DNA of 33,078 nt from Gammaproteobacteria bacterium (GTDB lineage Bacteria; Pseudomonadota; Gammaproteobacteria; Pseudomonadales; Azotimanducaceae): NCBI GenBank assembly GCA_009839505.1, contig VXPO01000077.1, positions 1 to 33,078 of the forward strand. The letters run 5' to 3'. Positions 3,880 through 29,740 of this stretch are shown here, piece by piece. Within the stretch, counting starts at the first letter, position 1, and every line of letters starts with the position of its first letter. The notes below the pieces were generated by a model. The model was not told the origin of the DNA. It ran no database searches and was given only the letters and a program-made list of their open reading frames with translations. A program made the translations under genes and the position numbers.

Positions 3880-4014
3880 CGTAGATCCTCCCGTCGTCAC
3901 GCGCAGGATTCGGGGACGGACGTGCTTTGTCAACCGAACGAACCTGGGACCCGGAGGAGCGGCCGCGCCATCGCAGGCAACAAATCCGCAACCCATTGAT
4001 TTCACAACAGAGTC

Positions 4015-4039
4015 GTAGGGGCGACCCTTGTGGTCGCCC
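4015..4039 (+). repeat. REP-like palindrome, copy 1
   Basis: Arms GGGCGACC (4019-4026) and GGTCGCCC (4032-4039) are fully complementary around the loop CTTGT; a GTAG tag precedes the left arm. An identical 25-base copy is at 32972-32996, and an inverted identical copy is at 4200-4224. Confidence 0.9.
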
Positions 4040-4199: not shown

Positions 4200-4224
4200 G
4201 GGCGACCACAAGGGTCGCCCCTAC
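4200..4224 (-). repeat. REP-like palindrome, copy 2 (inverted)
   Basis: Exact reverse complement of the 4015 copy: arms 4200-4207 and 4213-4220, loop ACAAG, then CTAC. Together with 4015 it makes an inverted pair about 160 bp apart, the usual BIME-like arrangement of REP sequences. Confidence 0.9.
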
Positions 4225-4274
4225 GGCGGCATCCGCACCGCAGATCCGTCGTTCCGTGGGATAGGTTGGCGACA

Positions 4275-5305: not shown

Positions 5306-6592
5306 ATGAGTACGGATCGCGAGTTCGGGTTTCACACCCGTTCTGTTCACGCCGGCGCACGACCGGAGCCAACCACGGGGGCGCGGGCCTTGCCGATCTA
5401 TCAGACCACGAGCTACGTGTTCGAGGATCCTGAGTCCGCCGCGGCGTATTTCAACCTGCAGGAGTACGGCAACACCTATTCGCGAATCATGAATCCAACG
5501 ATTGCGGCGTTGGAGGAACGCATCGCCAACCTGGAGGGCGGCGTCGGGGCTGTGTGTTTCGCGAGCGGCATGGCGGCACAGACCGCGGCCTTTTTCACCC
5601 TGCTGAATCCCGGTGATCACGTGGTTTCGTCGGCGGCGCTCTATGGCGGCACGATCACCCAGCTAAAACACCTGTTCCGCAAGCTATCGGTGGAGCTGAC
5701 CTTCGTTGATCCCGACGACATCGCGAGCTGGCGCGCCGCGGTGCAACCCAATACCAAACTGCTGTTCGCGGAGACCATCGGCAATCCCGGCGGCAACGTG
5801 CTGGACATCGAAGCCGTCGCCGAGATTGCGCACGATCACGGCGCGCCACTGATGGTGGACAACACGTTCGCGACGCCATTCCTGTGTCGCCCGATGACCT
5901 GGGGTGCGGACATCGTCGTCTACTCGGCGACCAAGTTCCTCGGCGGACATGGCACGAGCATTGGCGGCGCCGTGGTCGATTCGGGTGAGTTCGATTGGTC
6001 CAACGGCCGATTTCCAGTCATCGCCGAACCCTCCGAGGCCTATCACGGACTCGCCTTCCACGAGACGTTCGGCGTCTACGGCTACCTGATGAAACTGCGC
6101 GCGGAAACCCTGCGCGATCTCGGCGCGGCCATGAGCCCGTTCAACGCCTTTCTGTTCGCCCAAGGCATCGAGACGCTGCCGCTGCGGATGCGTCAGCATG
6201 TTCAGAACGCGCGTGCCATCGCGGAGCATCTCTCGCAACATGAGAAGGTGCTCGCGGTCAGCTATCCCGGGTTGCCGGACAGCCGGTACGCAGGGTTGGT
6301 GCAAAAGTACCTGCCTGGTGGTGCGGGCGCGGTATTCTGCTTCGATCTTGCCGGGGGTCGGGAGGACGGTCGGAATTTCATCCGGGCCTTGACGCTCTTC
6401 TCCCACCTTGCGAACGTCGGCGATGCGAAAAGCTTGGTGATTCACCCCGCAACGACCACCCATCGGCAACTGAGTGACGACGAACTGGCCGCCGCCGGTA
6501 TTGGTCCCGGCACGGTTCGTCTATCCGTTGGCATCGAGGACGTGGACGATCTCATCTGGGATCTCGACCAGGGCCTCGTGGCAGTAAGTTGA
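5306..6592 (+). CDS. metY: O-acetylhomoserine sulfhydrylase (aminocarboxypropyltransferase)
   Basis: 428 residues from the ATG at 5306; an in-frame ATG at 5285 would add seven residues, but 5306 follows AGGGAG and gives the usual start MSTDREFGFHTRSVHAG. It is a PLP enzyme of the Cys/Met metabolism family that joins O-acetylhomoserine with sulfide to make homocysteine. Visible signatures are YGNTYSRIMNPT (54-65), the cofactor-contacting D185 in MVDNTFATPF, and the Schiff-base lysine K210 in YSATKFLGGHGTSIGG. It is the first gene of a tight three-gene run with the CoA-binding protein (5 bp to its ATG) and the selenoprotein. No SAM riboswitch was seen upstream. Confidence 0.93.
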   Translation: MSTDREFGFHTRSVHAGARPEPTTGARALPIYQTTSYVFEDPESAAAYFNLQEYGNTYSRIMNPTIAALEERIANLEGGVGAVCFASGMAAQTAAFFTLLNPGDHVVSSAALYGGTITQLKHLFRKLSVELTFVDPDDIASWRAAVQPNTKLLFAETIGNPGGNVLDIEAVAEIAHDHGAPLMVDNTFATPFLCRPMTWGADIVVYSATKFLGGHGTSIGGAVVDSGEFDWSNGRFPVIAEPSEAYHGLAFHETFGVYGYLMKLRAETLRDLGAAMSPFNAFLFAQGIETLPLRMRQHVQNARAIAEHLSQHEKVLAVSYPGLPDSRYAGLVQKYLPGGAGAVFCFDLAGGREDGRNFIRALTLFSHLANVGDAKSLVIHPATTTHRQLSDDELAAAGIGPGTVRLSVGIEDVDDLIWDLDQGLVAVS

Positions 6593-6597
6593 GGACG

Positions 6598-7092
6598 ATG
6601 GAACTGGCCACCTATCAGAACCCGCAAGTCATCAGGGCCGCGCTCGACGAAAAGCGCATCGCCGTCGTCGGTCTATCGGCGAACGAACTGCGGGCGAGCC
6701 ATTTCGTTGGTTTCTACCTCAAGCGGCACGGCTATGACATCGTGCCGGTCAATCCCCGCGAAACTTCCATCCTAGGTTGCGAGTGCTACCCGAGCCTCAC
6801 CGACATTCCTGGACCCGTTGGGGTCGTGGACGTGTTCCGTGCACCGGAAGCAGTACCGGAGATTGCCCAACAGGCGCTCGATATCGGTGCCGGCTATCTC
6901 TGGCTTCAGTATGGGGTCATCAGCGAACAAGGCATCGCGCTCGCCGAGCAGGGCGGGCTGCATGTCGTCGTCGATCGGTGTCTGAAAGTGGAACATGCCC
7001 GCTATCATGGCCGGATGCACTGGTTGGGTTTCAATACCAACGTGATCTCCGCGGAACGCCGCGGTGTTTCACGACTGAACGGCCCAAGGTGA
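6598..7092 (+). CDS. CoA-binding domain protein (YccU-like, CoA_binding_2)
   Basis: 164 residues from the ATG at 6598; a TTG at 6589 overlapping the metY stop is an alternative start. The single Rossmann-like domain shows IAVVGLSANELRASHF (21-36), IVPVNPRE (48-55) and the C-terminal VVVDRCLKVEH, all typical of the small CoA-binding protein family. The biochemical role of the family is not settled. From general knowledge, members are often neighbours of O-acetylhomoserine sulfhydrylase genes, which fits this operon. The stop codon at 7090-7092 lies within the Shine-Dalgarno sequence AAGGTGAG of the next gene. Confidence 0.88.
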   Translation: MELATYQNPQVIRAALDEKRIAVVGLSANELRASHFVGFYLKRHGYDIVPVNPRETSILGCECYPSLTDIPGPVGVVDVFRAPEAVPEIAQQALDIGAGYLWLQYGVISEQGIALAEQGGLHVVVDRCLKVEHARYHGRMHWLGFNTNVISAERRGVSRLNGPR

Positions 7093-7097
7093 GCACG

Positions 7098-7976
7098 ATG
7101 AGACCGGAACCGACCGAGTACATCCGCCGGACCCGGGAGAGCTACGAGAAGCTCGGGTTCGAACCGTATCGGTGGTTCGATGCAGAGACCGAGCCCGCAT
7201 TTGTTACCCCGTCCAAACCGCTGGCCGAATCAAGGCTCGGAATGATCTCGACGGCGGGTGCCTACGTGCAGGGCCAGGTCGCCTATTACTACAAGGACGA
7301 CACGGGCGTCCGGGCGATCCCCAAAGACACGCCCATGGACAAGATTCGCTTCTCGCACATCATGGAAAACTACCTCGTTGAAGCCCGCCAGGATCCGGCG
7401 ACGGTTTTCCCCTCGGAGGTGCTCCGGAGCCTGAGCGCCGACGGCGTCATCGGCGAGCTTGCCGACAACTACTACTCGTGCATGGGCGGGATCTATTCCC
7501 AGAAGCGCGTGATCGCGGAACTCATCCCGCGCCTCACGCAAGCCATCGACAAGGAGGATGTGGACCTCCTGCTCCTCGTACCGCTGTGACCTGTGTGTCA
7601 CCAGACGGTGTGTCTGGTCGCAAGGCATTTCGAAGCGATGGGTCTGCCGACACTGATCCTAGGTAGTGCTTTGGACATCCTCCGGGCCGGTAAGCCGCCC
7701 CGAGCGAAGTTCGTCAACTATCCCCTTGGATTCGAGTCCGGCCGGTTCAGGGACCGGCAAAACCAGTTCGACGTGGTAGCCGAAGCGCTAAGGGGATTCG
7801 ACGAGATGACCTCTCCCGGCGTGGAGCTCCTGTCCTACGAATGGCGCCAAGGATGGGACATGGTCCATGCAAGGGAGAAGGGCAAGCTGGACCTCCGCAG
7901 TCCCCGGACCACGACCCCGCAGTACCAGACCGAGGAGGATCGGTTGATGGCCGAGGGGCAGGAGATCCAGGGGTAG
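7098..7976 (+). CDS. PrdB/GrdB-like selenoprotein, glycine/proline reductase family, in-frame TGA read as Sec164
   Basis: A conventional reading stops at TGA 7587-7589, yet the same frame continues with strongly protein-like sequence to TAG 7976: DLLLLVPL, TGA, then PVCHQTVCLVARHFEAMG. Read as selenocysteine, the gene gives 292 residues with U164 in a UxxC redox motif (U164-P-V-C167) and a further Cys at 172. Selenoprotein B-type subunits of glycine, sarcosine, betaine and proline reductases carry Sec in such motifs, and PrdB-like selenoproteins occur outside clostridia. A hairpin starting 11 nt after the TGA fits a bacterial SECIS. The start at 7098 follows AAGGTGAG. Downstream, FVNYPLGFESGR is also family-like. 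A Cys-to-stop pseudogene is the alternative; the hairpin argues against it. Confidence 0.85.
7587..7619 (+). promoter_or_regulatory. Bacterial SECIS element with the Sec TGA codon
   Basis: TGA at 7587-7589. Arms ACCAGAC (7600-7606) and GTCTGGT (7612-7618) pair perfectly over 7 bp around the loop GGTGT (7607-7611). Seventeen bases separate the TGA from the loop. Bacterial SECIS hairpins sit inside the coding region just after the UGA, and the E. coli fdhF element also has a GGU-containing apical loop recognised by SelB. Spacing, stem and GG loop all fit. Confidence 0.8.
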
Positions 7977-7983: not shown

Positions 7984-8370
7984 ATGCTGGACACGAACGT
8001 CGTGTGTGACTTGGTTCGTCAGCCGAATGGAAGCGTTGGTGGTCGCGTCACCGCGCTGGAGCAAGGATCCTTCAGTATCAGCGTCATCGTAGCCGCCGAA
8101 CTGCAATACAGCGCTGCGCGTAGCCGCTCCTCGCGTTTTAGGAAGCAACTCGACGCCGTTCTGTCTGCAATCGAAACGGTGCCGCTCGATGAGCCAGTAG
8201 ACACACACTATGGAACGATCCGTTCGGAACTTGAGCGGATCGGTCGTCCCATCGGCCAGAACGATCTGCTGATCGCCGCGCATGCCCGAGCGCTTGGTGG
8301 GACTCTCGTAACGAACAACACACGCGAGTTTGGCCGTGTCCCCGATCTAGACATCGAGGATTGGCGGTGA
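7984..8370 (+). CDS. vapC: PIN-domain VapC-like toxin ribonuclease, no antitoxin beside it
   Basis: 128 residues; the ATG at 7984 follows GGGGA. The PIN fold active-site acids are in place: D3 in MLDTNVV, E39 in VAAELQYSAA, D94 in GQNDLLIAAHA, and the C-terminal LVTNNTREFGRVP. VapC proteins are Mg-dependent RNases, usually cutting tRNA or rRNA, and normally follow a VapB antitoxin gene. Here only 7 bp separate it from the selenoprotein stop and no small antitoxin gene lies on either side, so it is an orphan or its partner is elsewhere. Confidence 0.9.
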   Translation: MLDTNVVCDLVRQPNGSVGGRVTALEQGSFSISVIVAAELQYSAARSRSSRFRKQLDAVLSAIETVPLDEPVDTHYGTIRSELERIGRPIGQNDLLIAAHARALGGTLVTNNTREFGRVPDLDIEDWR

Positions 8371-11869: not shown

Positions 11870-13030
11870 TTGGGTACGACTTTGGCAAAACTCACGGCGC
11901 GAAGGATTGAGACGGCGAAGGGTCCCGCGAAGCTGACTGATGAGCACGGATTGTACCTCCGGGTGTCGCCGAGGGGCGCGAAGTCCTGGATCCAGCGGCT
12001 GAACATCCAGGGCCTCCGGACGGACAACTCAATCGGCCACTACCCGGCGGTGGGCTTGGCGGAGGCGCGCGTCACCGCTTTCGAGCGTTGGAAGATCGCC
12101 AAGGCGGGCGGTGACCCGCGGAAGGAGAACGGCAAGGCGGTGCTTGCGCCGACGTTCGCCGAAGCGGCGGAGGCTGTGATCGCCATGCACACGCCTACCT
12201 GGCGCAGTCCCAAGTCGGGGCTACAGTGGCGGGCAAGTCTCGAGACCTACGCATATCCGAGCATTGGCGAACTGCCGATGTCGGAAATCACGCCCGGGCA
12301 CGTCATGGCCGTGCTACTGCCGATCTGGAACGACAAGCGCGAGACGGCGCGGCGCGTTAAACAGCGCATCTCGGCGATCTGCCGTTGGTCGGTTGCGCAG
12401 GGTTACCGCACCGACGATCCGGCTGGCATCGTGGTGGACGCGGCGCTGCCACGCAACGCGACCAAGCGGCGGCCCATGCCCGCGCTTCCCTACGACGAGG
12501 TGGCGGATTGCCTCGCGAAGGTGAAGGCGAGCCACCGAGCGAGCGCGTCGTCGAAGCTGGCGCTGGAGTTCCTGGTGCTGACGGCGGCACGGTCGGCCGA
12601 GGTGCGCAAGGCGACCTGGGACGAGATGGACGTCGCGTCCGCGACTTGGACGGTGCCGGCCGAGCGGATGAAGGCGAACCGGGAGCATCGCGTGCCCTTG
12701 TCGCGACGCGCCATCGAAGTGCTGGCGGAGGCTGCGGGGCTGTCAGACGGCTCGGAGTTGGTGTTTCCGGGCGTCCGTCAGGGCCGCCCGCTGAGCGAGA
12801 ACACGCACGCGAAGCTACTTCGCGAGCTTGGGTTCGACGCGGTGACGCATGGTTTTCGGTCAAGCTTCCGGGACTATGCCGCAGAACGGACGCACACGCC
12901 TCACGCGGTCATGGAGGCAGCGCTCGCGCACACGATCAAGGACAAGGCCGAGGCAGCGTATGCCCGCAGTGATCTCTTCGAGAAGCGGCGACGGTTGATG
13001 GAGTCTTGGGCGGAGTACCTGAGCGGCTGA
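11870..13030 (+). CDS. int: P4-type tyrosine integrase (DUF4102 arm-binding domain)
   Basis: 386 residues from TTG at 11870; a second TTG at 11882 gives the family-typical MAKLTARRIETAK and may be the true start. No ATG is in frame. The N-terminal arm-DNA-binding domain (1-85) shows KLTDEHGLYLRVSPRGAKSW. The catalytic domain has R241 in TAARSAEVRKATW, H327-x-x-R330 in THGFRSSF, H354 in LAHTIKDKAEAAYARSD and the nucleophile Y364, all present. The family cuts and rejoins DNA at tRNA 3' ends, which fits the tRNA-Ser repeat flanking this island. The gene looks intact, so excision may still be possible. Confidence 0.92.
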   Translation: MGTTLAKLTARRIETAKGPAKLTDEHGLYLRVSPRGAKSWIQRLNIQGLRTDNSIGHYPAVGLAEARVTAFERWKIAKAGGDPRKENGKAVLAPTFAEAAEAVIAMHTPTWRSPKSGLQWRASLETYAYPSIGELPMSEITPGHVMAVLLPIWNDKRETARRVKQRISAICRWSVAQGYRTDDPAGIVVDAALPRNATKRRPMPALPYDEVADCLAKVKASHRASASSKLALEFLVLTAARSAEVRKATWDEMDVASATWTVPAERMKANREHRVPLSRRAIEVLAEAAGLSDGSELVFPGVRQGRPLSENTHAKLLRELGFDAVTHGFRSSFRDYAAERTHTPHAVMEAALAHTIKDKAEAAYARSDLFEKRRRLMESWAEYLSG

Positions 13031-13129
13031 GCGGGATTGGCCTCGGAACTCATCGTCAGCGGCGAAGCATCTCCCCCTCGTTCCGCTTGCACCGACAGTC
13101 GTGTGCGACGACTGAGCGAACGCCGGCTA

Positions 13130-13159
13130 CCAATCAGGTAACGCGCCGGTTACCATTGG
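13130..13159. promoter_or_regulatory. Palindromic operator upstream of the toxin-antitoxin pair
   Basis: Arms GGTAAC (13137-13142) and GTTACC (13149-13154) around GCGCCG, extended after a 2-nt bulge by CCAAT (13130-13134) and ATTGG (13155-13159). It ends 3 bp before the toxin start. Toxin-antitoxin operons are typically self-repressed through such palindromes; that role is inferred here. Confidence 0.6.
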
Positions 13160-13162
13160 CCA

Positions 13163-13489
13163 GTGGTTCAAGTCACCGAGTATGTTGATGCCCAAGGTCG
13201 CCGTCCGTTCGAACGATGGTTCAATCGCCTCGATGGACAAGCCGCGATCAAGGTTACCGCGGCGTTGGACCGCATGGGACGAGGCATGGTGTCCAATGCG
13301 AAGAGCGTTGGAGCGGGAGTCCTGGAATACCGCATCGACTCTGGTCCGGGATATCGAGTCTATTTCGGGCGGGACGGCGCGACGTTGATCGTGCTGCTCG
13401 GGGGCGGTACGAAGAGACGCCAGCAGGCAGACATTGAGACGGCAAGGCGGCTTTGGCGCGACTACCGACGCAGGCAGCAGGAGGAGTAA
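13163..13489 (+). CDS. RelE/ParE-superfamily toxin (HigB-like addiction killer protein)
   Basis: 108 residues from a GTG at 13163 with only a weak ribosome site, which would keep toxin synthesis low. The compact basic fold of the phage Gp49/HigB type is seen in RPFERWFNRLDGQAAIKV (14-31), VLEYRIDSGPGYRVYFGR and LIVLLGGGTKRRQQADIETA. Family members are mostly ribosome-dependent mRNases. Toxin first and antitoxin second, 4 bp apart, is the higBA order. The palindrome just upstream is a likely operator. Confidence 0.85.
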   Translation: MVQVTEYVDAQGRRPFERWFNRLDGQAAIKVTAALDRMGRGMVSNAKSVGAGVLEYRIDSGPGYRVYFGRDGATLIVLLGGGTKRRQQADIETARRLWRDYRRRQQEE

Positions 13490-13493
13490 GACG

Positions 13494-13811
13494 ATGGCAT
13501 TGACCCGGGATTTCAAGGTGACGGTGCGGGAACGGCTCCAGCGCGACCCGGCATTCCGCGAGGCGCTCCTTACGGAGGCGGTGGACTGCCTTTTGTCCAG
13601 CGACGTGGAGACAGGCAAATCGCTGCTGCGCGACTACGTCAATGCCACTATCGGCTTCGGCGAACTCGGAGGACTCACGGACAAGTCGCCGAAGAGTCTG
13701 ATGCGCATGCTCAGTGCGACCGGCAACCCTCACGCGCGCAACCTTTTCGAGATCATCGACTGTTTGCAGCAACGGGAAGGCGTGCACCTGAAGGTGCAGG
13801 CAATCCGTTGA
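13494..13811 (+). CDS. HigA-like addiction-module antidote (HTH antitoxin)
   Basis: 105 residues from the ATG at 13494, behind a very strong AGGAGG site, so it should be translated better than the toxin. The C-terminal half is the helix-turn-helix of the addiction-module antidote family: LTDKSPKSLMRMLSATGNPH, then NLFEIIDCLQQREGVHLKV. The N-terminal VRERLQRDPAFREALLTEAV is also family-like. It should bind and neutralise the upstream toxin and repress the operon at the palindrome at 13130. The Mod gene starts 55 bp later in the same direction. Confidence 0.85.
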   Translation: MALTRDFKVTVRERLQRDPAFREALLTEAVDCLLSSDVETGKSLLRDYVNATIGFGELGGLTDKSPKSLMRMLSATGNPHARNLFEIIDCLQQREGVHLKVQAIR

Positions 13812-13866
13812 CTAAGGCGATGGGGGCGTCCCTGCCTGCCGGGGACTGGCACGAGGGAGACCACGA

Positions 13867-15420
13867 ATGCCGACTTTGAACTGGCTGACACGGGAGGCGG
13901 ACATCCGCGCGGCGACCCGGGTGGAGTATCGTTTACTTGAGGAGGTCGCGGAGCATTCGAGCGGCGAAGGCAAAACGGCGAACATGCTCATTCATGGCGA
14001 CAATCTCGACGCCCTGAAAGCGCTGCTGCCGTTCTACGCTGGACGTGTCAAGTGCATCTATATCGACCCGCCGTACAACACCCGGTCGGCGTTCGAGCAG
14101 TACGACGACAATCTCGAGCACACGCGTTGGCTGGCCATGATGTGGCCAAGGTTGGAGCTACTGCGCGAACTCCTGAGCGAGGATGGATCGATCTGGGTAT
14201 CCATCGACGACAACGAGGCACACTACCTCAAGGTCGTGATGGACGAGGTGATGGGGCGAAGTTCCTTCGTGGCGGACATCGTGTGGCAGCGTACGCACAC
14301 GCGAGAGAACCGAACGGACATCTCGAACGTCCATGACAACATCCTGGTGTATGCGAAGAACCGTGCGATTTGGCGTGAGATCAGGAATCCGTTGCCGAAG
14401 TCCGAAGAGCAGCTCCAGAGGTTCAAGAATCCTGATGGAGACCCACGCGGTAGGTGGGCGTCGCTGCCCATCCACGCGAAGGCTGAAAAGGGACGAAGGC
14501 GCGAGCAGTTCTTCACCATCACGTTGCCTTCAGGCCGCGAACTCGACCCGCCGCCAGGAAGATGCTGGCTGTACACGGAGGATCGGTTCCTCGAGATGTG
14601 TGCCGAAGACCGGATCTGGTTCGGGGAGAACGGGAACAACGCCCCGCGGCTTAAGAGCTTCCTGTCGGAGGTCCAGAGTGGGCTAGTACCGTCAACTCAT
14701 TGGTCACACAAGGAAGTCGGAACCACAGGGACGGCCAAGAGCGAAGTCGTGAGCCTCTTTGAGGGCGAAACGCCGTTCTCGACGCCAAAACCCGAGGCGC
14801 TGATAGAACGCGTGGTCCACATCGCCACGAATGCCGGCGATCTAGTTCTCGATTCCTTCCTCGGGTCAGGGACAACGGCGGCTGTTGCACACAAGATGGG
14901 ACGGCGCTGGATCGGGGTGGAGATGGGGGAGCACGCAGTCACGCATTGCGCTCCTCGTCTGCAGAAGGTAATCGACGGCGACGAGGGTGGTATTTCCGAA
15001 CGCGTGGGGTGGAAAGGCGGCGGCGGATTTCGGTTCTACAGGCTCGGGCCGCCTGCGTTCGACGCGGATGGGCGGATTCGTCCCGACATCCAGTTCTCGG
15101 CACTCGCTGCTCACGTGTGGTTTTCGGAGACCGGGACCCCGTGGGATGGTGACGGCTGCTCCCCGCTGCTTGGAATTCACGATGGGAGGGCATGGGCGCT
15201 GCTTTACAACGGAGTGCTCGGGGACAGGCGCGAGGACGGCGGGAACGTGCTTACGCGAGGAACGCTCGCCCTGATCCGCGAGAAGGCCGCCGAAACTGAG
15301 CAGGGATTCGCCGGGCCGCTAACGGTGTACGGTGAGCAGTCGCGCCTGGCGACGGAGACACTTGAGGGCGAGGGCATCGTCTTCAAACAGACGCCCTACG
15401 ACATTGAGTCACGGGCCTGA
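13867..15420 (+). CDS. mod: Type III restriction-modification DNA adenine methyltransferase (Mod)
   Basis: 517 residues. Motif IV D67-P-P-Y70 (in IYIDPPYNTRS) comes before motif I FLGSGTT (331-337), the beta-class order of N6-adenine/N4-cytosine methyltransferases, and STPKPEALIERV (305-316) is the matching conserved box. The N-terminal NMLIHGDNLDALKALLP is characteristic of Mod proteins. It methylates one strand of a short asymmetric site and gives the complex its specificity; the site cannot be read from sequence. The middle region (150-290) would hold target recognition. It is coupled to Res, whose GTG starts 6 bp after this stop. It is somewhat shorter than classical EcoP1-type Mod. Confidence 0.92.
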   Translation: MPTLNWLTREADIRAATRVEYRLLEEVAEHSSGEGKTANMLIHGDNLDALKALLPFYAGRVKCIYIDPPYNTRSAFEQYDDNLEHTRWLAMMWPRLELLRELLSEDGSIWVSIDDNEAHYLKVVMDEVMGRSSFVADIVWQRTHTRENRTDISNVHDNILVYAKNRAIWREIRNPLPKSEEQLQRFKNPDGDPRGRWASLPIHAKAEKGRRREQFFTITLPSGRELDPPPGRCWLYTEDRFLEMCAEDRIWFGENGNNAPRLKSFLSEVQSGLVPSTHWSHKEVGTTGTAKSEVVSLFEGETPFSTPKPEALIERVVHIATNAGDLVLDSFLGSGTTAAVAHKMGRRWIGVEMGEHAVTHCAPRLQKVIDGDEGGISERVGWKGGGGFRFYRLGPPAFDADGRIRPDIQFSALAAHVWFSETGTPWDGDGCSPLLGIHDGRAWALLYNGVLGDRREDGGNVLTRGTLALIREKAAETEQGFAGPLTVYGEQSRLATETLEGEGIVFKQTPYDIESRA

Positions 15421-15426
15421 GGCGGC

Positions 15427-18063
15427 GTGGACCTTAAGCGATATCAGACCGAGACACTCGACGTCCTTCGCCGCTTCTTCGAGGAGGCACGGATCGGCGG
15501 GCCAAAGAACTCCTATGAAACCGTGACGCGAGAGCCAGAGCAGGCCGGGCGCCTTGGTAGCTATGGTGGCAACTACCGGCCATTGTCGGGCTTACCTGAG
15601 GTCCCATACGTCTGTCTACGCTTACCGACAGGTGGCGGCAAGACGATCCTCGCGGCGCATGCAGTCGCCCTAGCCCGCGACGCCTGGATCGAGAAGGACT
15701 GGCTGATGGCGCTATGGCTGGTTCCGACGAAGACGATTCGGCAGCAGACAGCAGAGGCGTTGAAGAATCCGCGCCATCCGTACCGACAGGTGCTTGATGA
15801 AGCGTTTGATGGGCGCGTGCGCGTGTTCGACATCGCGGACTTTGCCACCATTCGTGCGCACGACGTGCGTGGGCAATGCTGCATCGTCGTCGGAACGATC
15901 CAGACTCTGCGTGTCAAGAGCACGGAAGGTCGCCGGGTCTACGCACACAACGAGGATATGGAACCGCACTTCACGCAACTGGCGAATGCTGCAGGGCTGG
16001 AGTTGCTGGCTGGGGGTGGCGGCCCGAAGTACTCGTTCGCGAACCTCATGCATCTTCATCGGCCATTGATGATCGTCGACGAAGCCCACAACGCTGTGAC
16101 CGGGCTGACGCGAGAGATGCAGGCACGGGTGAACCCTTGTGCCGTCGTTGAGTTCAGCGCGACACCGCGGGTGAACTCGAACATCCTCCACAACGTGTCG
16201 GCGACCGAGTTGAAGGCGGAAGAGATGGTCAAGCTGCCGGTGATGCTCTCGGAACACGACACGTGGCAGGAGGCGGTGAATGGGGCAGTCGCTGCGCGAA
16301 AGGCATTGGCGGAGGCGGCGGCGCATGATCGCGACGGCATCCGCCCGATCGTTCTTTTCCAGGCGGAAAAAAGGAACGAGGAGGTTACGGTCGCCGCTCT
16401 GAAGCGCCACCTGAATGAGGTTGAGCAGATACCGGGCGAACGCATCGCTGTGGCCACAGGCGACCAGCGCGAACTCGATGGAATCGACCTGTTCGATCCG
16501 GGCTGCCCGATCGAGCATGTCATCACAGTCGAAGCGCTGAAGGAGGGTTGGGACTGTTCCTTCGCCTACGTGTTCTGTTCGGTGTCGCGGATCCGGAGCG
16601 CGGTGGACGTCGAGCAGTTGCTTGGGCGAGTGTTGCGGATGCCTTATGCGAAGCGTCGCGAGATGGATGAACTGAACAGGGCCTACGCCTATCTCTCGGA
16701 GCCCTCCTTCGGTGAAGCCGCGCGAGCGCTCGTCGACAAGCTGGTTCAGATGGGTTTTGACGAGGACGAAGCGCGCGACAGCATCGAGCCAACGCAACGG
16801 GAACTGGGTATCGAGGATGATCTGTTCTCTCAACAGGACGTATCCGAGCCTACGTTCAGATACACGATCCCTGTTGATCCGAGGGTGACGTCAGACCTAG
16901 AGGTGCGTGACGGCGTTGCGATTCGTGAGAGCCCAGGCGATAAGGTCGAAATCGTCGTTGTTGGCCACTTCGATGCGCAGCTCGAAACGAGGATCTTCGC
17001 ATCGCTGCCTGAACGCGAACGTGGCGAGTTTGCCAAGGCCGTGGCGGCGTATAGAGCACAGACGCAGCAAATTGTCTCCCCTGCAGGAATGGGCGAGACC
17101 ATTCTCGTTCCCCGTCTGATGTCGGAGGTTCAGGACACGTTGACATTCGCTGACACCGACGTGTTGATGGAGTACCACGACTGGTCGCTTCTCGATCATC
17201 CGTGGAGACTGGGCAAGGGCGAGTTCGAGATCCGCACCACCGCCCGCAGCTTTGAGATCGATCTGGACGGAAACCGCATCTCCTACCAGTTCGCGACCGA
17301 GGTGGAGCAATTGCAGTTGGACGTGCAGGTCGAGGGATGGACACAGCAAGCCCTAGTGCTGTGGCTCGACCGCCAATTGCGGCAGCCGGACATCGCTCAA
17401 GGCGAGATGCTGGGCTGGCTCAGTCGCCTCGTGAGTCATCTGGTCGAGGTGCGCGGGATGCACATCGCCGCGTTGATGCGTTGCAAGTTCATCCTTGCGC
17501 GTAAGGTGCGGGAGAAGATCGCTGCGGCCCGCCGTCGAGAGCGAGCCGGGGTCTATCAGCGGCAGTTGCTGGCACCGGGAGCCAAGACGGAAGTCTCGTT
17601 CGAGCACACCTTCGTGTTCGAGGACGGGATGTATCGGGACCAGCGGCGCTATCGTGGAAGTTGGAAGCCGACGCGGCACTTTCTCGGCCCGGACCGGGTT
17701 CCGGCCTTTGATGGCGCTGAGGACGGCGAGGAATTCCGTTGCGCCCAGGCGATCGACAGCCTGACCAGCGTGAAGTTCTGGGTCAGGAATGTCGCTAGGC
17801 ACCCCGCGTCATTCTGGCTGCCCACCGCGAGGGGCAAGTTCTACCCGGACTTCGTGGCGCTGCTGGAAGACGGTCGGTTGATGGTGGTGGAGTACAAGGG
17901 GTCGCACATCGCGGAAGGTCCCGACACCGCCGAGAAGCGGACCATTGGCGAATTGTGGGAACGAAAGAGCGACGGGACGTGCCTGTTCCTGATTGCGGAG
18001 AAGCTAGTCGACGGTGCCGACACACGGACGCAGATTCTCGCGAAGGTCGGGCCGAAGGTCTGA
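15427..18063 (+). CDS. res: Type III restriction endonuclease, helicase-nuclease subunit (Res)
   Basis: 878 residues from a GTG at 15427 preceded by GAGGCGGC. The superfamily 2 helicase core has Walker A LPTGGGKT (66-73), DEAH (218-221), SATP (244-247) and motif VI EQLLGRVLRMPYAKR. The C-terminal PD-(D/E)xK nuclease is complete: P807-D808 in FYPDFVALLED, then E822-Y-K824. Res with Mod cleaves DNA after ATP-driven communication between two unmethylated sites. All motifs are intact and the gene is not interrupted, so the system looks functional. Confidence 0.92.
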   Translation: MDLKRYQTETLDVLRRFFEEARIGGPKNSYETVTREPEQAGRLGSYGGNYRPLSGLPEVPYVCLRLPTGGGKTILAAHAVALARDAWIEKDWLMALWLVPTKTIRQQTAEALKNPRHPYRQVLDEAFDGRVRVFDIADFATIRAHDVRGQCCIVVGTIQTLRVKSTEGRRVYAHNEDMEPHFTQLANAAGLELLAGGGGPKYSFANLMHLHRPLMIVDEAHNAVTGLTREMQARVNPCAVVEFSATPRVNSNILHNVSATELKAEEMVKLPVMLSEHDTWQEAVNGAVAARKALAEAAAHDRDGIRPIVLFQAEKRNEEVTVAALKRHLNEVEQIPGERIAVATGDQRELDGIDLFDPGCPIEHVITVEALKEGWDCSFAYVFCSVSRIRSAVDVEQLLGRVLRMPYAKRREMDELNRAYAYLSEPSFGEAARALVDKLVQMGFDEDEARDSIEPTQRELGIEDDLFSQQDVSEPTFRYTIPVDPRVTSDLEVRDGVAIRESPGDKVEIVVVGHFDAQLETRIFASLPERERGEFAKAVAAYRAQTQQIVSPAGMGETILVPRLMSEVQDTLTFADTDVLMEYHDWSLLDHPWRLGKGEFEIRTTARSFEIDLDGNRISYQFATEVEQLQLDVQVEGWTQQALVLWLDRQLRQPDIAQGEMLGWLSRLVSHLVEVRGMHIAALMRCKFILARKVREKIAAARRRERAGVYQRQLLAPGAKTEVSFEHTFVFEDGMYRDQRRYRGSWKPTRHFLGPDRVPAFDGAEDGEEFRCAQAIDSLTSVKFWVRNVARHPASFWLPTARGKFYPDFVALLEDGRLMVVEYKGSHIAEGPDTAEKRTIGELWERKSDGTCLFLIAEKLVDGADTRTQILAKVGPKV

Positions 18064-18076
18064 CTTCGGAGTGAGT

Positions 18077-18850
18077 GTGGGCAGGGGGCCGAAAGGTAGC
18101 GAGGTTGGAGTCGAACAGTGGTTGCGTCGTCGACCAGGGATTACGGACGTGCGCTTTGTCGGCGACGAAGGCGAAGGGCCTCCCGACTTCCTTGCTCGTT
18201 TTCACGGCTGTTGCGTCGCCGTGGAAGTAACGAAGATGGCACTCGAGAGTGGGTGGCCCGAGAAGTACCGCATTGCGTTCGAACGGGAATTGTGCGCCGT
18301 GGTCCAATCGGTGAAGGATGACCCACGGGCACCGCGGTGGCATGTGGTTTGTTCATATGACCCCGACCAGCCGAAGCCCCCGAGGCGGAACGGCGATTGG
18401 AAGCGGCGTCTCAGGACAGCTTTGATGAGGGCGAGCGGCGGCGGAAGCCTCCAACTCATCGAAGAGAGGTTGCGAGTCGGCGATGGCGTGGTGGTCGAGT
18501 ACTTCCCGGCAGGAAACGACGGGAGTCTACCGTTCGTCAACGAAGACGGTGCGTACTACGTGGTAGGTGCGGCCTCCGAGCGGATCGCGGAGGAGGTTCG
18601 CAGGAAAGCCGCCAAGGTCACGTCCTCGCCAAGTGCGCGCAGTTTTCAGGGGCAATGGTGGCTCGCTCTCGACGACGAGGTCGTGTGGGTGCACTCCGGG
18701 CTAGACGAACGCGAGTGGCAGTCGATCCGAGAGTCCGTAGGCGTCGCCAACGAAGATGTCGGGGTTTGGAGCAAGGTCGTCCTAGTGAGCGAACGGACCG
18801 GCAATTGGACGACGATTTGGGAGCGGCAAGGCGAACGAGAATTGAGGTGA
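18077..18850 (+). CDS. Putative PD-(D/E)xK-like protein, function unknown
   Basis: 257 residues from GTG 18077, placed 5 nt after GGAG; GTG 18071 is a close alternative, and the frame is open back into res. I do not recognise a named family. The N-terminal third has GEGPPDFLARFHG followed by CVAVEVTKM: D37, then E50-V-T-K53 on a hydrophobic strand, resembling the PD-(D/E)xK nuclease core with a shifted lysine. Later, ALDDEVVWVHSGL and VWSKVVLVSERTG look like beta strands of an alpha/beta fold. It starts 13 bp after res in the same direction, so it is likely co-transcribed with the type III system and may be an accessory. Confidence 0.6.
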   Translation: MGRGPKGSEVGVEQWLRRRPGITDVRFVGDEGEGPPDFLARFHGCCVAVEVTKMALESGWPEKYRIAFERELCAVVQSVKDDPRAPRWHVVCSYDPDQPKPPRRNGDWKRRLRTALMRASGGGSLQLIEERLRVGDGVVVEYFPAGNDGSLPFVNEDGAYYVVGAASERIAEEVRRKAAKVTSSPSARSFQGQWWLALDDEVVWVHSGLDEREWQSIRESVGVANEDVGVWSKVVLVSERTGNWTTIWERQGERELR

Positions 18851-19147
18851 CGATGTTGGGGCTTCGCGAAGTAGCAGACGGCAGATCCGGCGCTCGCTCC
18901 GTGAGTATGCGAGCGTGTCGCGGGTTGGGTTAATGCGCGCGCGCCCGTCATTGCCGATGGCCCTCACGACCTCCTCCAGGCGGAAGGAGCATCCGCGGTA
19001 GGGAACTAGCGACCAATCGTCGGACGGTTCGGAAGGTCTAGCCGACAGTGGTGCGCCCGAGAAAAAGGGTGTTTTGCGTTGCTACGACGTTCTAGAAGCG
19101 GCATGTGCCGCGTCATGCAACTGGAACGACACCAAGGAGGTTCTGCA

Positions 19148-20194
19148 ATGACTACACCGACGAGCAAAGAGCGCGAATGGTTCACGATCTTCCGCACTGA
19201 CGAGGGAAACCGTTGGCTGTACGACGAAGTGGTCAGCGGACGGCTACGGCAGGGATGGGGTGCGCCTGGACTGGGTCTCCGCAGCGACAACGGCGCGGCG
19301 GTCGACAAGCGGGATTGGGAGGCGGCCTACCGGGAACAAACCGACTGGGGCGAACCGAGTCCCATGCGCTTTGCCATCCTGAGCCGAATGCTGGAACTGG
19401 ACGACGGCGACATCGTCGCGATGCCAAAGATGCCGGCTTGGGACCGGTTCACCGTCGCGCGGGTGAGCGGTCGCTACAAGTTCGAAACCGGCAGGGGCAT
19501 CCAGGACTTCAGGCACGTCGTCCCGGTCTATCCGGAGAGCGTGCGGACGTTCGCCCATCGGGCCAACGAACACGCGTTCCTCGTGTCTGCGCTTTTCGCG
19601 AGGGCGAACCATCGTCCGGCGGTGTCGTTTTGCGTCGGCGCGGAGCAGGTCAAGGCGGCGCGACGGTTGCTGGAAATCCCGGGGAGCGTGGCCGAGAAGC
19701 CGCAAGAGAGTCTGGTCGCGGCGGCAATGGACGACGCGTTCCGGGCCGCTGCTGAGTTGTTCGCGAAGACGGTGGCGGGCTGGAACGGAACGCTGTTCGA
19801 GAACGCGGTTCGGCAGCGGTTCATCGACCAGGGCTACGAGGTCAAAGAGACCTACAGGCGCTACGACGGCGAGGGGAGCGACATGGACATGGTGGTGTCG
19901 CCGCCGCCCAGTCGGCACGGACCGTTTCTTCCCGCGGAGATTGCCGTACAGGTCAAGTGGAAGCAGGGGATCGACAAGGGCGACGCGAGGGCGGTCGCGC
20001 AGATCAAGCGTTGGGCGGAATGGCAAGGTAGCACCGCGACCAAGTACGTGATCAGCTCGGCGTCCGGCTTTACGGAGGCGGCACGGGAGGAAGCGGCAGC
20101 GAATGGCGTGGAGTTGATTGGTGGACTGCAGACAATGTGCTTTTTGCTCGGGCTGGCTGACCGCTACCGGGCGGACTGGGAGAAGCCGTCGTGA
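19148..20194 (+). CDS. Mrr-like restriction endonuclease with reader-like N-terminal domain
   Basis: 348 residues; the ATG at 19148 has a perfect AAGGAGG 7 bp upstream. The C-terminal domain (215-330) is Mrr-like: E218 in LFENAVRQRFIDQGYEV, D247 in GSDMDMVV, and Q268-V-K270 in IAVQVKWK, followed by KYVISSASGFTEAAREEA and VELIGGLQ. The N-terminal domain (10-130) shows EWFTIFRTDEGNRWLYDEVV, GRLRQGWG and DDGDIVAMPK, a pattern resembling EVE/PUA-type modified-base readers and the central domain of the McrB in this island. A modification-dependent (type IV) restriction role is inferred. It is preceded by a ~300-bp gap, so probably has its own promoter. Confidence 0.78.
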   Translation: MTTPTSKEREWFTIFRTDEGNRWLYDEVVSGRLRQGWGAPGLGLRSDNGAAVDKRDWEAAYREQTDWGEPSPMRFAILSRMLELDDGDIVAMPKMPAWDRFTVARVSGRYKFETGRGIQDFRHVVPVYPESVRTFAHRANEHAFLVSALFARANHRPAVSFCVGAEQVKAARRLLEIPGSVAEKPQESLVAAAMDDAFRAAAELFAKTVAGWNGTLFENAVRQRFIDQGYEVKETYRRYDGEGSDMDMVVSPPPSRHGPFLPAEIAVQVKWKQGIDKGDARAVAQIKRWAEWQGSTATKYVISSASGFTEAAREEAAANGVELIGGLQTMCFLLGLADRYRADWEKPS

Positions 20195-20242
20195 TGGCCA
20201 AAGATTGCAGAGACGTCCCTGCGTACGATGGCCTAGCAGGGT

Positions 20243-20333
20243 GCGCTGTCACTACCTCTGCGGCCGGTCGCAAGAAGTCTCGCGTATAGCGCCGACGAAG
20301 TTGGTTGGCCGGGGAAGTAGGTAGTGACAGCGC
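20243..20333. repeat. 15-bp perfect inverted repeat, 91-bp unit
   Basis: GCGCTGTCACTACCT at 20243-20257 and its exact reverse complement at 20319-20333, 61 bp apart, 48 bp downstream of the Mrr-like gene. Spacing is long for a simple terminator, and there is no T run. It could be the ends of a tiny non-autonomous element or a recombination/regulatory site. Confidence 0.75.
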
Positions 20334-20381
20334 GCCAAATCGGCGTTGCGGCCAGAGGCGGCGGGGCTGATAAGAATTCTC

Positions 20382-20420
20382 TTCTGGTGCCGTTTTGGTG
20401 CCAGATGCTATTCTGGAGCC
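20382..20420 (+). repeat. Three GGTGCC-type direct repeats, candidate integrase arm sites
   Basis: TTCTGGTGCC (20382-20391), TTTTGGTGCC (20393-20402) and TTCTGGAGCC (20411-20420). Clustered short direct repeats of this kind are commonly found as arm-type binding sites beside tyrosine integrases; the dead integrase begins 780 bp further on. Function is inferred only. Confidence 0.5.
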
Positions 20421-20428
20421 ATCTTTGA

Positions 20429-20500
20429 GCCGCCCTTGTGCGGCATGGTCGGAGGGGACTCCGGCAGACCGGGAAACCGGACGGCAGGCGGAAATCCTGC
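20429..20500 (+). ncRNA. Candidate structured RNA: three short hairpins
   Basis: Three hairpins lie within 72 bases: GCCGC/GCGGC with a 6-nt loop (20429-20444), CCGG/CCGG with a GAAA tetraloop (20469-20480), and GCAGG/CCTGC with loop CGGAAAT (20484-20500). A GNRA tetraloop and clustered stems in gene-free DNA suggest an RNA, but in GC-rich sequence short stems arise easily. It matches no RNA family I know. Strand is a guess. Confidence 0.25.
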
Positions 20501-21202
20501 GTGAGGGCGCGGCGGTCAGGCATGGCCACCAGCGTCCAGGTGCCGCTTCCGGGATGCTAGCGCATTCCGGAGTTCGCCGGGGAGATGCACCGGCATTCGG
20601 GCACGGATTCGCTACGTCGCTCTGTGGGGCGGCGGGAGCGGATCGGGATGCGCCGCTACTTTGACGGGCGGCATAGACCAACATCCCGAACGCGGCAGCG
20701 CGGCGGCTTCGCGAGACCTTCCGATGGTTCGCGGGGCACGACGGGACACGTTACTGTCCTTGATCGAGGCCGACACTGTCGCGGCGACCGAGGCGGTCGC
20801 GGCGGCCGGGGAGGCATCCTTGGCGTGGGTGGTTGAAAAACACCGCAGCCGCGGCACCGTTGGCGCCGAACAAGAGGCCGCCGGCCCATGTCGCAAGACA
20901 CGCCGCGGCCGCCGCATGCGACGGCACGGCAACTGCATCTTCGGGCCTTGCGCAGAAATGCGGGTCCGCAATGTCCTCGTCGAGGGACGGCGGATCGCCC
21001 AGCAAAACTGACCTCGCACGCCGGCCCGGCCCGCAGACGCGGCGCCGGGCGCGGCAGCTTCCCTCCGGCACCCGCTGAAAATAACTCCAGAGGCGCAATC
21101 GGTGCTGCTCCGGCGCACGGCGTTCCGAGCGGTCTCCCGCTTAGCGGACTGCTAAACACGGGGTCGTAGACCCGGTGCGCGGGCAGGCGTATATCGTCTG
21201 CG

Positions 21203-22066
21203 ATGCGTGACCTGAACTACGACCTGAAGCGCCTGCAGGCGGCGCACGACGACGGCTCCCACGGCACGCGGACGGTGCGCTCCTACGCGCTGGCGCAGAT
21301 CGCGGACGCGCTGCACGATCTCGGCTTCAAGGGGCTCAAGGCCACCGGGCTCCGGCGCAAGCACGTCGTGGCGCTGGTCAAGGAGTGGAAGCGCCAGGGG
21401 CGCTCGATCGGCACGATGAAGAACCGCACGGCGCACATGCGCTGGTGGGCGGAGCGTATCGGCCGACCGGGGGTAGTGCCCTCCAACGGGGAGCTCGGCA
21501 TCGCCAATCGCGAGTACGTGACCAACGAGGACAAGAGCGTTGTGCTCGACCCGGAGAAGCTGGCGCTGGTGAAGGATGAGCACGTCGTCATGGCGCTGCG
21601 GATGGAGGCGGAGTTCGGCTTGCGCCGCGAGGAGGCGATCAAGTTCACGCCCTCGAGGGACGACCGGGGCGACCGCATCCGGCTGAAGGGCTCGACCACC
21701 AAGGGCGGTCGCCCGCGCGAGGTGCCGGTTCTGAAGGACAGCCAGCGCCGCCTGCTCGACGAGGCGCGCAGGCTGGCCGGAGGCGGCGCGCTGATCCCGC
21801 CGGACCGCAACTAAAAACAGCAGCTGAAAGTCTACGAGAACCGGACCCGCGAGGCGGGTCTGTACCGGATGCACGGTCTGAGGCACGGCTATGCGCAGCG
21901 TCGCTACGAGGAGATCACCGGGTGGAAGTCGCCGGCTGCCGGGGGACCGTCGCGGCGGTCGCTGACCGGGGCGCGGCGGAGGATCGACAGGGAGGCGCGC
22001 AGGACCATCGCCCGCGAGCTAGGGCACGACAGAATTGCGGTAGTGGCCCAGTACGCAGGTAGCTGA
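21203..22066 (+). pseudogene. Second tyrosine integrase (Integrase_1-like), interrupted by a TAA
   Basis: An open frame from ATG 21203 stops at TAA 21812-21814, and the same frame continues at once with integrase sequence to TGA 22066. Joined, it is 288 codons. The N-terminal half binds DNA (YDLKRLQAAHDDGSHGTRTV); the catalytic residues are split: the first R in EFGLRREEAIKF is before the stop, while H-x-x-R in MHGLRHGYAQRRYEE, H in RELGHDRI and the nucleophile Y in AQYAGS come after it. The stop follows PPDRN, where a tyrosine codon (TAC or TAT) mutating to TAA would suffice. The truncated product lacks the active site. This is a different integrase family from the one at 11870. Confidence 0.85.
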
Positions 22067-22118
22067 AGTGTGCCGAACCGGGACGCGGCGTGGCGCGCCC
22101 CGGCGGCGACAGGCGGGA

Positions 22119-22589
22119 TCAACTGCGGGAGTAGCGCCAACCCGAATCGGTGAGAGAGGTGCGCCAGAGCTGCTCGGACTTTGGCTCGGGATCGGGCAGC
22201 GGCGACCAGTATGCGGCGCTCGGTTCCTTCTTCCGCCTGGCGTTCCAGGGCGATATCCCGCCGTCGAGATTGCTCGCCTTGTGCACCTTGTCGGGCGTGG
22301 CCGCGAACTCGTCGATGACGGCGGCGTCCAGGACGTCCTGGCGCTTCTGCGCGCGCTCGATGTCACGGGCGTCGCGGCACCGCGCGCAGAGGAAATCGCC
22401 CTCCAGCCGCTTGCGGTACGCGCAGCGCCGACAGCCGCCTTCCGCGACGAGCGCCGCGCGTCTTCTGCGGCAACTGGCGGCCCGGCGGTCGAGGCACGGC
22501 TGGCAGCTCGCGTACCAGCCACCGTTGGCCTTACGGGCGCGTTTCCGGCGACAGCGCGGCTGGCTGCACGTTTCGGGTTCTTCGCCCAA
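22119..22589 (-). CDS. Cysteine-rich putative zinc-finger protein
   Basis: 156 residues from a TTG at 22589; no better start is in frame and the ribosome site is poor, so the N-terminus is unsure. Cysteines occur as spaced pairs: CSQPRC (8-13), CQPC, a single C in AASCRRRR, CRRC and CARC, all within the first 75 residues and mixed with many arginines, a pattern of zinc ribbons binding nucleic acid. The remainder is helical then unstructured. No family name is recognised. It is convergent with the dead integrase, and similar Cys-rich small proteins are often carried by integrative elements. Real coding is likely but not certain. Confidence 0.5.
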   Translation of the reverse strand: MGEEPETCSQPRCRRKRARKANGGWYASCQPCLDRRAASCRRRRAALVAEGGCRRCAYRKRLEGDFLCARCRDARDIERAQKRQDVLDAAVIDEFAATPDKVHKASNLDGGISPWNARRKKEPSAAYWSPLPDPEPKSEQLWRTSLTDSGWRYSRS

Positions 22590-22811
22590 GACGGCGTGCG
22601 GAACGAAGCCCGGTGGCAGTCTGCCACTCCACTGAGCGAGATGCTGGGTGCTTGGTCGCTGACGGCGAATCGTGGAATCGCACCGGTCGCATCATTGGGT
22701 TCTATTGGCGAGAGGGGCGCTTGACCGGCGACATAGGTCTGAGAATTGACTGCGTCGCATTGACTTCACCGCATCAATCTCGGAACCTCCCCGACGATTT
22801 GAGGGGGGTGC

Positions 22812-25046: not shown

Positions 25047-26083
25047 GCGCTGAGCGGATCCCGATCTCGAACGTCTACTACCTGCTGTGCTATGCCTGGC
25101 GTCACGTCGAGGAGCGCGACCTTGTAGGGGTGGACGCTTTGGACGAACTGGAGCGGGTGCAGGATCTGCTGGCCACGGTGTTGGTCCAGGGCACGTTCCG
25201 GCTGGTCAGACAAGGGATTGATCGCGGGTATCGGGACGTGCAGGAGGATCTTGCGGGCATCCGGGGGAAGGTGGATGTCGGCGGGACGGTGAAGCGGGCG
25301 TTGCGCAGCCGCGGCCGGGTCGCGTGCGCCTTCGAGGAGTTGACTCTCGACGTGCCGCACAACCGGATCCTGCGGTCCACCCTGTCCGCGCTGCTGCGTG
25401 TTCGGGATCTGGATCGCGATGTGCGGGCGAGTGTCCGAAGCGCCTACGAGAAGCTCGCCGGCGTGACGGTCGTGCGGGTGACGCGGCGCCTGTTCGACCA
25501 GGTGCAACTGGACGGCAACCGGCGGTACTACCGGTTTTTGTTGTCCGTGTGTCGGTTGGTTCACGACTTGTTGCTGGTCGACCCACGGTCCGGGGAACAC
25601 CGGTTCGCCGGCTTGACGGACGCAGTTATGTGGAAGGTGTACGAGGATTTCGTGATCGAGTTCTACCGGCGCGAGCAGGACCGCTACGGCGTGAACAGGC
25701 GTGGACGAACCATTCGGTGGGCTCGGGAGGGCACCCACGAGGACCAGCGGTCGAAGCTGCCTCGGATGGTGGCGGACGCCATCCTCGAAGCGGACGACCG
25801 CCGGATCATCATGGATGCCAAGTACTACCCCGAGGCCCTGGGTGGCCCGTACGGCGGGAAGCTACGCTCGGACCACCTCTACCAGCTGCTGGCCTACCTG
25901 AGGAACCGGGAGGCCACGGAGGTGCCCGGAGCCTTGCACGAAGGCATCCTACTGTATCCAACCGTGGGAGCGGCGGTTTCCGCCAAGGTCCGTCTGGAGG
26001 GGTACCGGATCCAGGCACGCAGCATCGACCTCTCCAAGGACTGGAAGGACATCCACCGCGACATGCTGCGGATCATCGCCTGA
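25043..26083 (+). CDS. mcrC: McrC-like nuclease subunit
   Basis: 346 residues from the TTG at 25043, which overlaps the mcrB stop as TTGA and so suggests translational coupling; earlier in-frame starts lie inside mcrB. The N-terminal IPISNVYYLLCYAWRHVEE is the hallmark of McrC. The PD-(D/E)xK nuclease core near the C-terminus is D245 in RMVADAILEADDRR and D258-A-K260 in IIMDAKYYPE. It should be the cleaving partner of the McrB ring. All motifs are present, so the pair looks functional. Confidence 0.9.
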   Translation: MSAERIPISNVYYLLCYAWRHVEERDLVGVDALDELERVQDLLATVLVQGTFRLVRQGIDRGYRDVQEDLAGIRGKVDVGGTVKRALRSRGRVACAFEELTLDVPHNRILRSTLSALLRVRDLDRDVRASVRSAYEKLAGVTVVRVTRRLFDQVQLDGNRRYYRFLLSVCRLVHDLLLVDPRSGEHRFAGLTDAVMWKVYEDFVIEFYRREQDRYGVNRRGRTIRWAREGTHEDQRSKLPRMVADAILEADDRRIIMDAKYYPEALGGPYGGKLRSDHLYQLLAYLRNREATEVPGALHEGILLYPTVGAAVSAKVRLEGYRIQARSIDLSKDWKDIHRDMLRIIA

Positions 26084-26400
26084 GTGGAATCGCGATGCTC
26101 GAACCTGTTCGCGAACCGCGTTGGGTCAAAGGCCCCAGCGGGCTGGTCACGTCGCGCCAGCGGGGACAGGAGCGTTGCGGCAGAACGCAGGGCCGCGTGT
26201 GGGGCGGCTCGAAAAGGCGAGCGCCTGGAGCCCGTTGGTATCTCGATCCCTGTGCGCATCCGCTATCGGTGGGCGGCTCGCTGGATTGCGTTCCCGGACT
26301 CGGCAGCGCCGGGGACCGGATGACTGTGACGCGAGTGTCCCGAGGACGCGGCACCGCTGGGGTGGCCGCCAGGCATGGGCGTCGCGTGAGGGCAGGTCGT
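26084..26400. other. Gene-free stretch between McrC and the HEPN gene
   Basis: 317 bp between convergent genes. I see no supported gene, RNA or repeat; the short frames on both strands have no recognisable content. Confidence 0.5.
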
Positions 26401-28595: not shown

Positions 28596-28933
28596 GGCGG
28601 CTTGGCTACGGCCATACGGCCCCAGTCTAAGAGACAGGCGCCAACCTAGCAGACGCGTAGGAGAGGAGTCACGCTTGTAAGCTGCAAATCAGCTTCGGCC
28701 GACAGGGGTTGCAGCGCATTAGTGGTTGATGGATGTCGAAGAGCACGTCGACGAGAGCGACGAGCAGCTACTGTGCGCGGGCCGATTCGCCCGGCCGGGT
28801 CCGCGGACGCGCAACGGCGGGATCAGCTTCGGGAGAACCGACAGCCCGTGTGTCGTGAAACGATGTCCTTCTCGACAGTTCGGTCATGGGCGCGGGAGCG
28901 GGCATGGCGTTCGGGGCGGCGAATGGGTGTCAG
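28596..28933. other. Gene-free stretch upstream of the kinase-HEPN operon
   Basis: 338 bp between genes on the minus strand. It should carry the promoter of the kinase-HEPN operon near 28600-28680. Short plus-strand frames here have no recognisable content. Confidence 0.5.
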
Positions 28934-29515: not shown

Positions 29516-29740
29516 GGGCGAGTCTTCAACGATGGGGAGTTGGTGCGAGGAACGTGACGTTCGCGGTTTCGTTCAAAGGTTGCGGCAGGACGCTGCGGGG
29601 GCTGTCGAGAGAGGAGAACGAAAAGGGACCGGTGCCAGCCGACGCCGAGGGGAGGCGGGTTGCTCGCCGGTCGGTGGCTGCCCCGGACGGTATCGAGGGT
29701 CCATAAAGAGTCATGGAATTGCGCTTAAGCCCGGCCATTC

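Follow-up and report, generated by a model that had tools for sequence, protein, structure and literature searches.

Does the TGA that interrupts a long coding frame in this 33,078-nt stretch of DNA (hereafter the window) end a gene or specify selenocysteine (Sec), and, in the second case, what kind of enzyme would the gene encode? When TGA was translated as U, the frame at 7098-7976 gave 292 residues with a single TGA, codon 164 at 7587-7589, confirming that this codon is the sole interruption, as a preliminary description of the locus had claimed. Under translation table 11, the upstream frame stops at 7589 and a GTG-started ORF of 127 aa covers 7593-7976; standard annotation would, as had been anticipated, give two fragments of what we argue is an intact gene. 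The relevant features are as follows.

7098-7976, + strand: predicted gene for a GrdB/PrdB-like selenoprotein of 292 aa, Sec164 included; terminated by TAG at 7974-7976
7587-7589, + strand: in-frame TGA, predicted Sec codon, U164 of U-P-V-C; TGA kept in relatives
7596-7598, + strand: codon of Cys167, predicted resolving residue of UxxC; invariant in 22 proteins, Asp in 14 UPLD paralogues
7600-7618, + strand: putative apical hairpin of a bacterial SECIS, 7-bp stem 7600-7606/7612-7618, loop 7607-7611; supported by covariation and folding

The close relatives of the gene comprise 15 loci in named genome records (59-94% identity by alignment), the titles of which read Gammaproteobacteria, Pseudomonadales, and one K189A clade. 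TGA is present at the site in all 14 that reach it, while the match of the 15th (L051) stops short. Among 398 genomes of the phylum, 16 contained a match, i.e. the window's own genome (G000), G139 with two copies and TGA in both, and 14 genomes with Cys codons only. In the bacterial family to which the window belongs, 54 of 61 genomes yielded a total of 138 matches, one to six per genome and including the window gene and its paralogue. All 138 sites were read (49 in one locus set and the other 89 fetched afterwards), giving TGA in 137 and TGC in one (G439:C181, L114); three of the 137 have one further stop inside the match (G463:C173, G432:C97, and G461:C2). Because the named loci and the family genomes overlap, with at least three loci (L041, L050, and L053) being the same contigs, duplicates were removed before distinct sequences were counted. 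The only alternative to TGA seen at the site is a Cys codon, TGC or TGT, found in 16 sequences; the in-frame UGA is conserved at a Sec/Cys position and none of the homologues examined carries any other residue there. Values of dN/dS against four relatives were 0.11-0.15 before the TGA and 0.07-0.19 after it, and those against a fifth relative (L043), for which silent sites are saturated, were 0.06 and 0.07. A pseudogene or a sequencing error, with the TGA as a nonsense change, would account for the broken frame under table 11 but has a negligible probability and was rejected based on the 147 distinct site sequences that share TGA at this codon, the purifying selection on both sides of it, and a hairpin that covaries in sequences with the TGA but not in those of Cys copies (below).

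The genome of the window (4.7 Mb in 181 contigs, 96% complete) encodes the whole Sec pathway. Specifically, selA (C150:7427-8743, 517 bits), selB (C150:8782-10611, 371 bits), and the gene for tRNA-Sec (C150:10704-10793, 69 bits; anticodon TCA according to ARAGORN) are consecutive on one contig, tRNA-Sec directly after selB, and selD is on C129 (256 bits); all four scores are over the respective cut-offs. With selA, selB, selC, and selD present and no codons other than those for Sec or Cys at the homologous site in the sequences examined, the Sec residue proposed in the preliminary description is strongly supported. More widely, selA was found in all 16 searched genomes for which the site was read as TGA (G000, G139, and 14 named genomes) and in the genome of L051, compared to only one (G289) of the 14 genomes in which only Cys copies were found. 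The two genes upstream of the selenoprotein gene are also informative.

5306-6592, + strand: MetY, O-acetylhomoserine sulfhydrylase gene, the first gene of a tight cluster; ends in TGA; start chosen by homology, with an in-frame ATG also at 5285
6598-7092, + strand: CoA-binding protein gene (CoA_binding_2); its TGA stop is separated from the start of the selenoprotein gene by 5 nt

Because both genes terminate at TGA, there is no wholesale reassignment of UGA. A GTG codon lies one codon after the TGA and could give the downstream part its own start; nevertheless, such an internal restart, or decoding of UGA as Trp or Cys through a variant code or by readthrough, is highly improbable, and we rejected these possibilities because TGA stops the genes upstream, the Sec pathway is complete, the hairpin resembles a SECIS in position and shape, and the homologues examined encode Sec or Cys, and none of them Trp, at the site.

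The hairpin consists of ACCAGAC (7600-7606), the loop GGTGT (7607-7611), and GTCTGGT (7612-7618) and is, thus, the 7-bp hairpin originally noted; the distance of 17 nt from the TGA given for it is correct for the start of the loop but not for the start of the stem, which is 10 nt from the TGA. The bacterial SECIS of the E. coli type (fdhF) is a short hairpin just 3' of the UGA with GU at loop positions 2-3. The window hairpin has these same properties but, as a point of difference, its loop starts 17 nt after the UGA in every one of 60 aligned sequences. Taken alone, the hairpin is weak evidence and could occur by chance in 33 kb because a pattern rule built on it matched 2 of 757 TGAs on the two strands, with 0.51 matches expected per simulated window. 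Single-sequence folding energies are also weak evidence: -15.3 kcal/mol for 36 nt was reached by 3 of 200 shuffles and -17.1 kcal/mol for 49 nt by 11 of 200 (z-scores of -1.9 and -2.6; -1.5 and -0.1 for two paralogues).

Conservation and covariation lift the hairpin above chance. In a gapless alignment of 60 distinct TGA sequences over 51 nt, the seven pairs were formed in 92.9% of cells (75.2% in shuffled alignments and at most 35.7% in slid controls, a control that favors a structure derived from one of the sequences, as here), both sides were changed in 70 cells compared to a shuffled mean of 16.4, and the covariation score was 0.456 compared to 0.124; none of 500 shuffles was as high on all three of these measures, a contrast that relatedness of the sequences tends to inflate. 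Two further measures were less striking: pairs changed on both sides numbered 5 vs. 3.6 in shuffles, a value reached by 14 of 500 shuffles, and further pair types numbered 10 vs. 9.8, a value reached by 296 of 500. The 16 Cys homologues had no pairing excess at the hairpin site (69.6% vs. 71.1%). Comparing the 147 distinct TGA sequences with these 16 homologues, GT at loop positions 2-3 was present in 143 vs. 1, the closing pair in 146 vs. 3, at least six pairs in 125 vs. 2, and all seven pairs in 72 vs. 0, demonstrating that the lower stem is looser. One paralogue (L115) has the loop GGTCT. The SECIS-like character claimed for the hairpin is strongly supported by this conservation and covariation among TGA sequences, which indicate that an element directly 3' of the UGA is under selection as RNA. 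Based on these sequence comparisons, we consider it very probable that 7098-7976 is one intact selenoprotein gene of the GrdB/PrdB superfamily, in which SelB with Sec-tRNA would bind the hairpin just 3' of the UGA at 7587 for Sec to be inserted at residue 164.

The name PrdB comes from an anaerobic clostridial enzyme, and the preliminary description had called the protein PrdB/GrdB-like. The best curated match is indeed the D-proline reductase subunit PrdB (TIGR04483), with 101 bits over residues 32-251 and an equivalog cut-off of 300, and the UxxC motif of PrdB is shared in the form of UPVC. Matches to selenoprotein B of glycine/sarcosine/betaine reductase were lower, 28.7 bits for TIGR01918 of NCBIfam (cut-off 65.45) and 21.5 bits for PF07355, the Pfam GRDB family (cut-off 22); this homology is around the Sec residue (residues 94-189), and the model has 431 positions compared to the 292 aa here. 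Other types of the family also scored below the PrdB cut-off (L069, 155 bits; L036, 98 bits; L115, 110 bits; and L109, 142 bits). Judged by the curated cut-offs of these sequence models, the window protein is a remote homologue of GrdB and PrdB and a member of neither.

We also considered the partner proteins. The pyruvoyl partner PrdA/GrdE (PF09338) was not found in G000 and was found in only one of the 61 family genomes (G427), leaving 53 of the 54 family genomes with PrdB-like genes in which no pyruvoyl subunit was found; these genomes are drafts, 57-100% complete, so that a single absence is not proof. GrdA was not found in G000 either and, in the search of the family genomes, exceeded the GRDA cut-off in G427 only, with a sub-threshold match in G434. 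Searches without a positive control, which are uninformative by themselves, gave no PF09338 match in 10 genomes and none in 369 genomes of the class. That the partner searches work is evident from G427, a sister genome in which GrdE-, GrdB-, and GrdA-type genes were found together. One contig of this genome (G427:C195; L244 and L246) carries all three, i.e. a gene resembling GrdE/GrdG, one of the GrdB type, and one for GrdA that contains a single TGA. The PF09338 match has an E-value of 1e-140 and its protein scores best as sarcosine GrdG (346 bits, cut-off 780), while the adjoining GrdB-type protein scores 555.7 bits with TIGR01918, which is over that cut-off and below the glycine-specific one. 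This protein reads UGTCTRC, whereas the window protein has one UxxC.

Is the window protein, then, PrdB proper, i.e. the Sec subunit of D-proline reductase that acts with the pyruvoyl subunit PrdA? The best curated match, the shared motif, and the name used in the cited parts of the marine surveys (PMC1088965, PMC2398784) favor this, but it is very unlikely given a score far below the equivalog cut-off and the distribution of PF09338 in none of 10 genomes (no control match) and one of 61. We conclude that PrdB/GrdB-like holds as a description of remote homology while PrdB as a functional name does not, given 101 bits compared to 300 and no PrdA, GrdE, or GrdA found; proline reductase, as such proteins are usually called, is probably a misnomer here. 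According to the cited part of the literature, D-proline reductase acts on a pyruvoyl-proline adduct (PMC10298544). For GrdB and PrdB, amino-acid substrates are prepared by a pyruvoyl subunit and, because none was found here, the substrate of the remote homologue is probably other than D-proline or glycine.

For the mechanism, we took advantage of alignments and of an AlphaFold model with Cys in place of Sec (mean pLDDT 86.4, pTM 0.89). Sec/Cys164, Cys167, His168, and Gln169 are invariant in 22 aligned proteins, and Sec164 is predicted at the start of helix 165-180, following strand 157-161. The fold gave no function because a Foldseek search of the PDB with the model returned no match at E ≤ 0.001; a search of solved structures by sequence also returned no match of note and, because neither route led to a solved structure, the chemistry is one that we infer. 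Our working hypothesis, which we somewhat favor, is a dithiol-dependent reduction with Sec as its nucleophile: the selenolate of Sec164 would attack, Cys167 would resolve the Se intermediate as a selenenylsulfide, and a dithiol would recycle the enzyme. Alternatively, Sec164 could have a chemistry unlike that of GrdB and PrdB, e.g. that of a general nucleophile, with Cys167 serving as acid/base, in a two-domain fold resembling that of racemases. A weak Foldseek match to an atypical asparaginase (8uor, E 0.068) and the paralogues with UPLD, which keep Sec without the Cys, point in this direction; all Foldseek matches, however, fall short of E 0.001 and the remote homology points to GrdB/PrdB, and we regard this alternative as unlikely, if less so than PrdB proper.

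UPLD replaces UPxC at 14 of the 147 distinct sites. Because these paralogues have Asp for Cys167, the selenenylsulfide of the UxxC motif cannot be general, and at least some members do without the resolving Cys; in 12 of the 14, a Cys is present 11 residues after the Sec. The subclass reads UPLDHQTVGLV, with Sec and the SECIS-like hairpin kept and Asp in place of Cys at the third residue after Sec. It comprises the following loci.

UPLD loci: L109, L164, L171, L174, L178, L186, L188
UPLD loci, continued: L195, L197, L198, L200, L202, L207, L208

In a tree of 76 sequences (60 Sec and 16 Cys), the window is in a clade of 24 (support 100/99) that is sister, with weak support (91/70), to another Sec clade, which has 16 members. 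The distribution of Sec and Cys on this tree needs three changes, at least two of which are forced by well-supported branches. A type-1 match (at least 59% identity) was present in 14 family genomes and a type-2 match (39-47%) in 23, and no genome has both; 16 of the 23 type-2 genomes are in the tree and the other seven were assigned by identity and HQSVGL after the Sec site. G449, which is of the same genus as the window, had no match of the window's clade. Among the further paralogues, most of which share ~30-38% identity, is a longer type with roughly 400 residues. G000 itself carries a second gene for a GrdB/PrdB-like selenoprotein (C47:63339-64073, L036), with an in-frame TGA, a SECIS-like hairpin, and 36% identity. 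Separately, a Cys copy in G217 (L022:1672-1722), the tree neighbor of which is a Sec copy (L037), has kept the SECIS loop as CGTGA and the closing pair and has lost one pair; this region is likely a fossil SECIS after a Sec-to-Cys change.

In the cited part of the Sargasso Sea survey, proline reductase PrdB with UxxC ranks third in abundance among the known selenoprotein families, with 42 Sec members and 1 Cys member (PMC1088965); the corresponding part of the GOS survey has 235 Sec and 110 Cys members (PMC2398784), and that of a later GOS survey gives proline reductase as 6.4% of selenoprotein genes (PMC9402790). As far as these parts go, the marine PrdB sequences resemble those analyzed here in having UxxC, in Sec being commoner than Cys, and in coming from marine bacteria (PMC1088965, PMC2398784), and differ in being metagenome sequences without genomes, whereas the genomes here reveal no PrdA partner, several paralogues, and a UPLD subclass. 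The window gene is probably a member of this marine UxxC family and, thus, of a kind of selenoprotein already known from the oceans. What the present analysis adds is up to six paralogues per genome, the UPLD subclass, and the cluster with MetY and the CoA-binding protein; our literature search found nothing on selenocysteine with UxxD or on sponge-symbiont selenoproteins. We give even chances to the broader proposal that marine PrdB proteins of the window's kind are partner-free selenoenzymes other than proline reductases, with up to six Sec copies per genome in one gammaproteobacterial family, and that in their UPLD part Sec would act as the lone nucleophile. That no PrdA match was found in 60 of 61 genomes, in a group with as many as six of these genes per genome, renders the functional question concrete and testable.

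In the window, the order metY, CoA-binding gene, selenoprotein gene is maintained with 5-nt gaps, and 7 of the 16 loci of the window's clade, the window included, have this order. The named loci among them come from records whose isolate codes, e.g. IRC, RHO, and COS, we take to be sponge names. In G463, the same three genes are rearranged to selenoprotein, CoA-binding, and MetY. Because the MetY/CoA-binding pair is general in the bacterial family, its link to the selenoprotein is weak: MetY adjoins 22 of 30 CoA-binding loci in the family, some of which are cut by contig ends, and the pair is away from the selenoprotein in most genomes having it. The neighbors, therefore, hint only weakly, and as a guess, at a role in thiol/homocysteine metabolism. 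Clustering of neighbors at 54 loci, with a few genomes counted twice (27 loci of the window clade, six type 2, 11 type 3, nine type 4, and one Cys), revealed no neighbor common to all 54 among the 45 largest clusters listed. SDR, CoA-transferase, and ligase genes recur 2-6 kb from selenoprotein loci.

The window has several other features. A VapC-like PIN toxin gene (7984-8370) starts 7 nt after the selenoprotein stop, leaving no room for VapB directly upstream; it was not found at the other 15 close relatives, in some of which the sequence ends soon after the selenoprotein gene. The palindromic 26-nt repeat GGGCGACCACAAGGGTCGCCCCTACG is present in three copies (4014-4039, 4200-4225, and 32971-32996), and a shorter core of it is also found in L019, L039, and L042. 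Finally, 11870-29884 is an island-like stretch with the following genes.

11870-13030: tyrosine integrase
13867-18063: DNA methylase and ResIII helicase
22812-26083: AAA_5 and McrBC genes
29794-29884: tRNA-Ser gene
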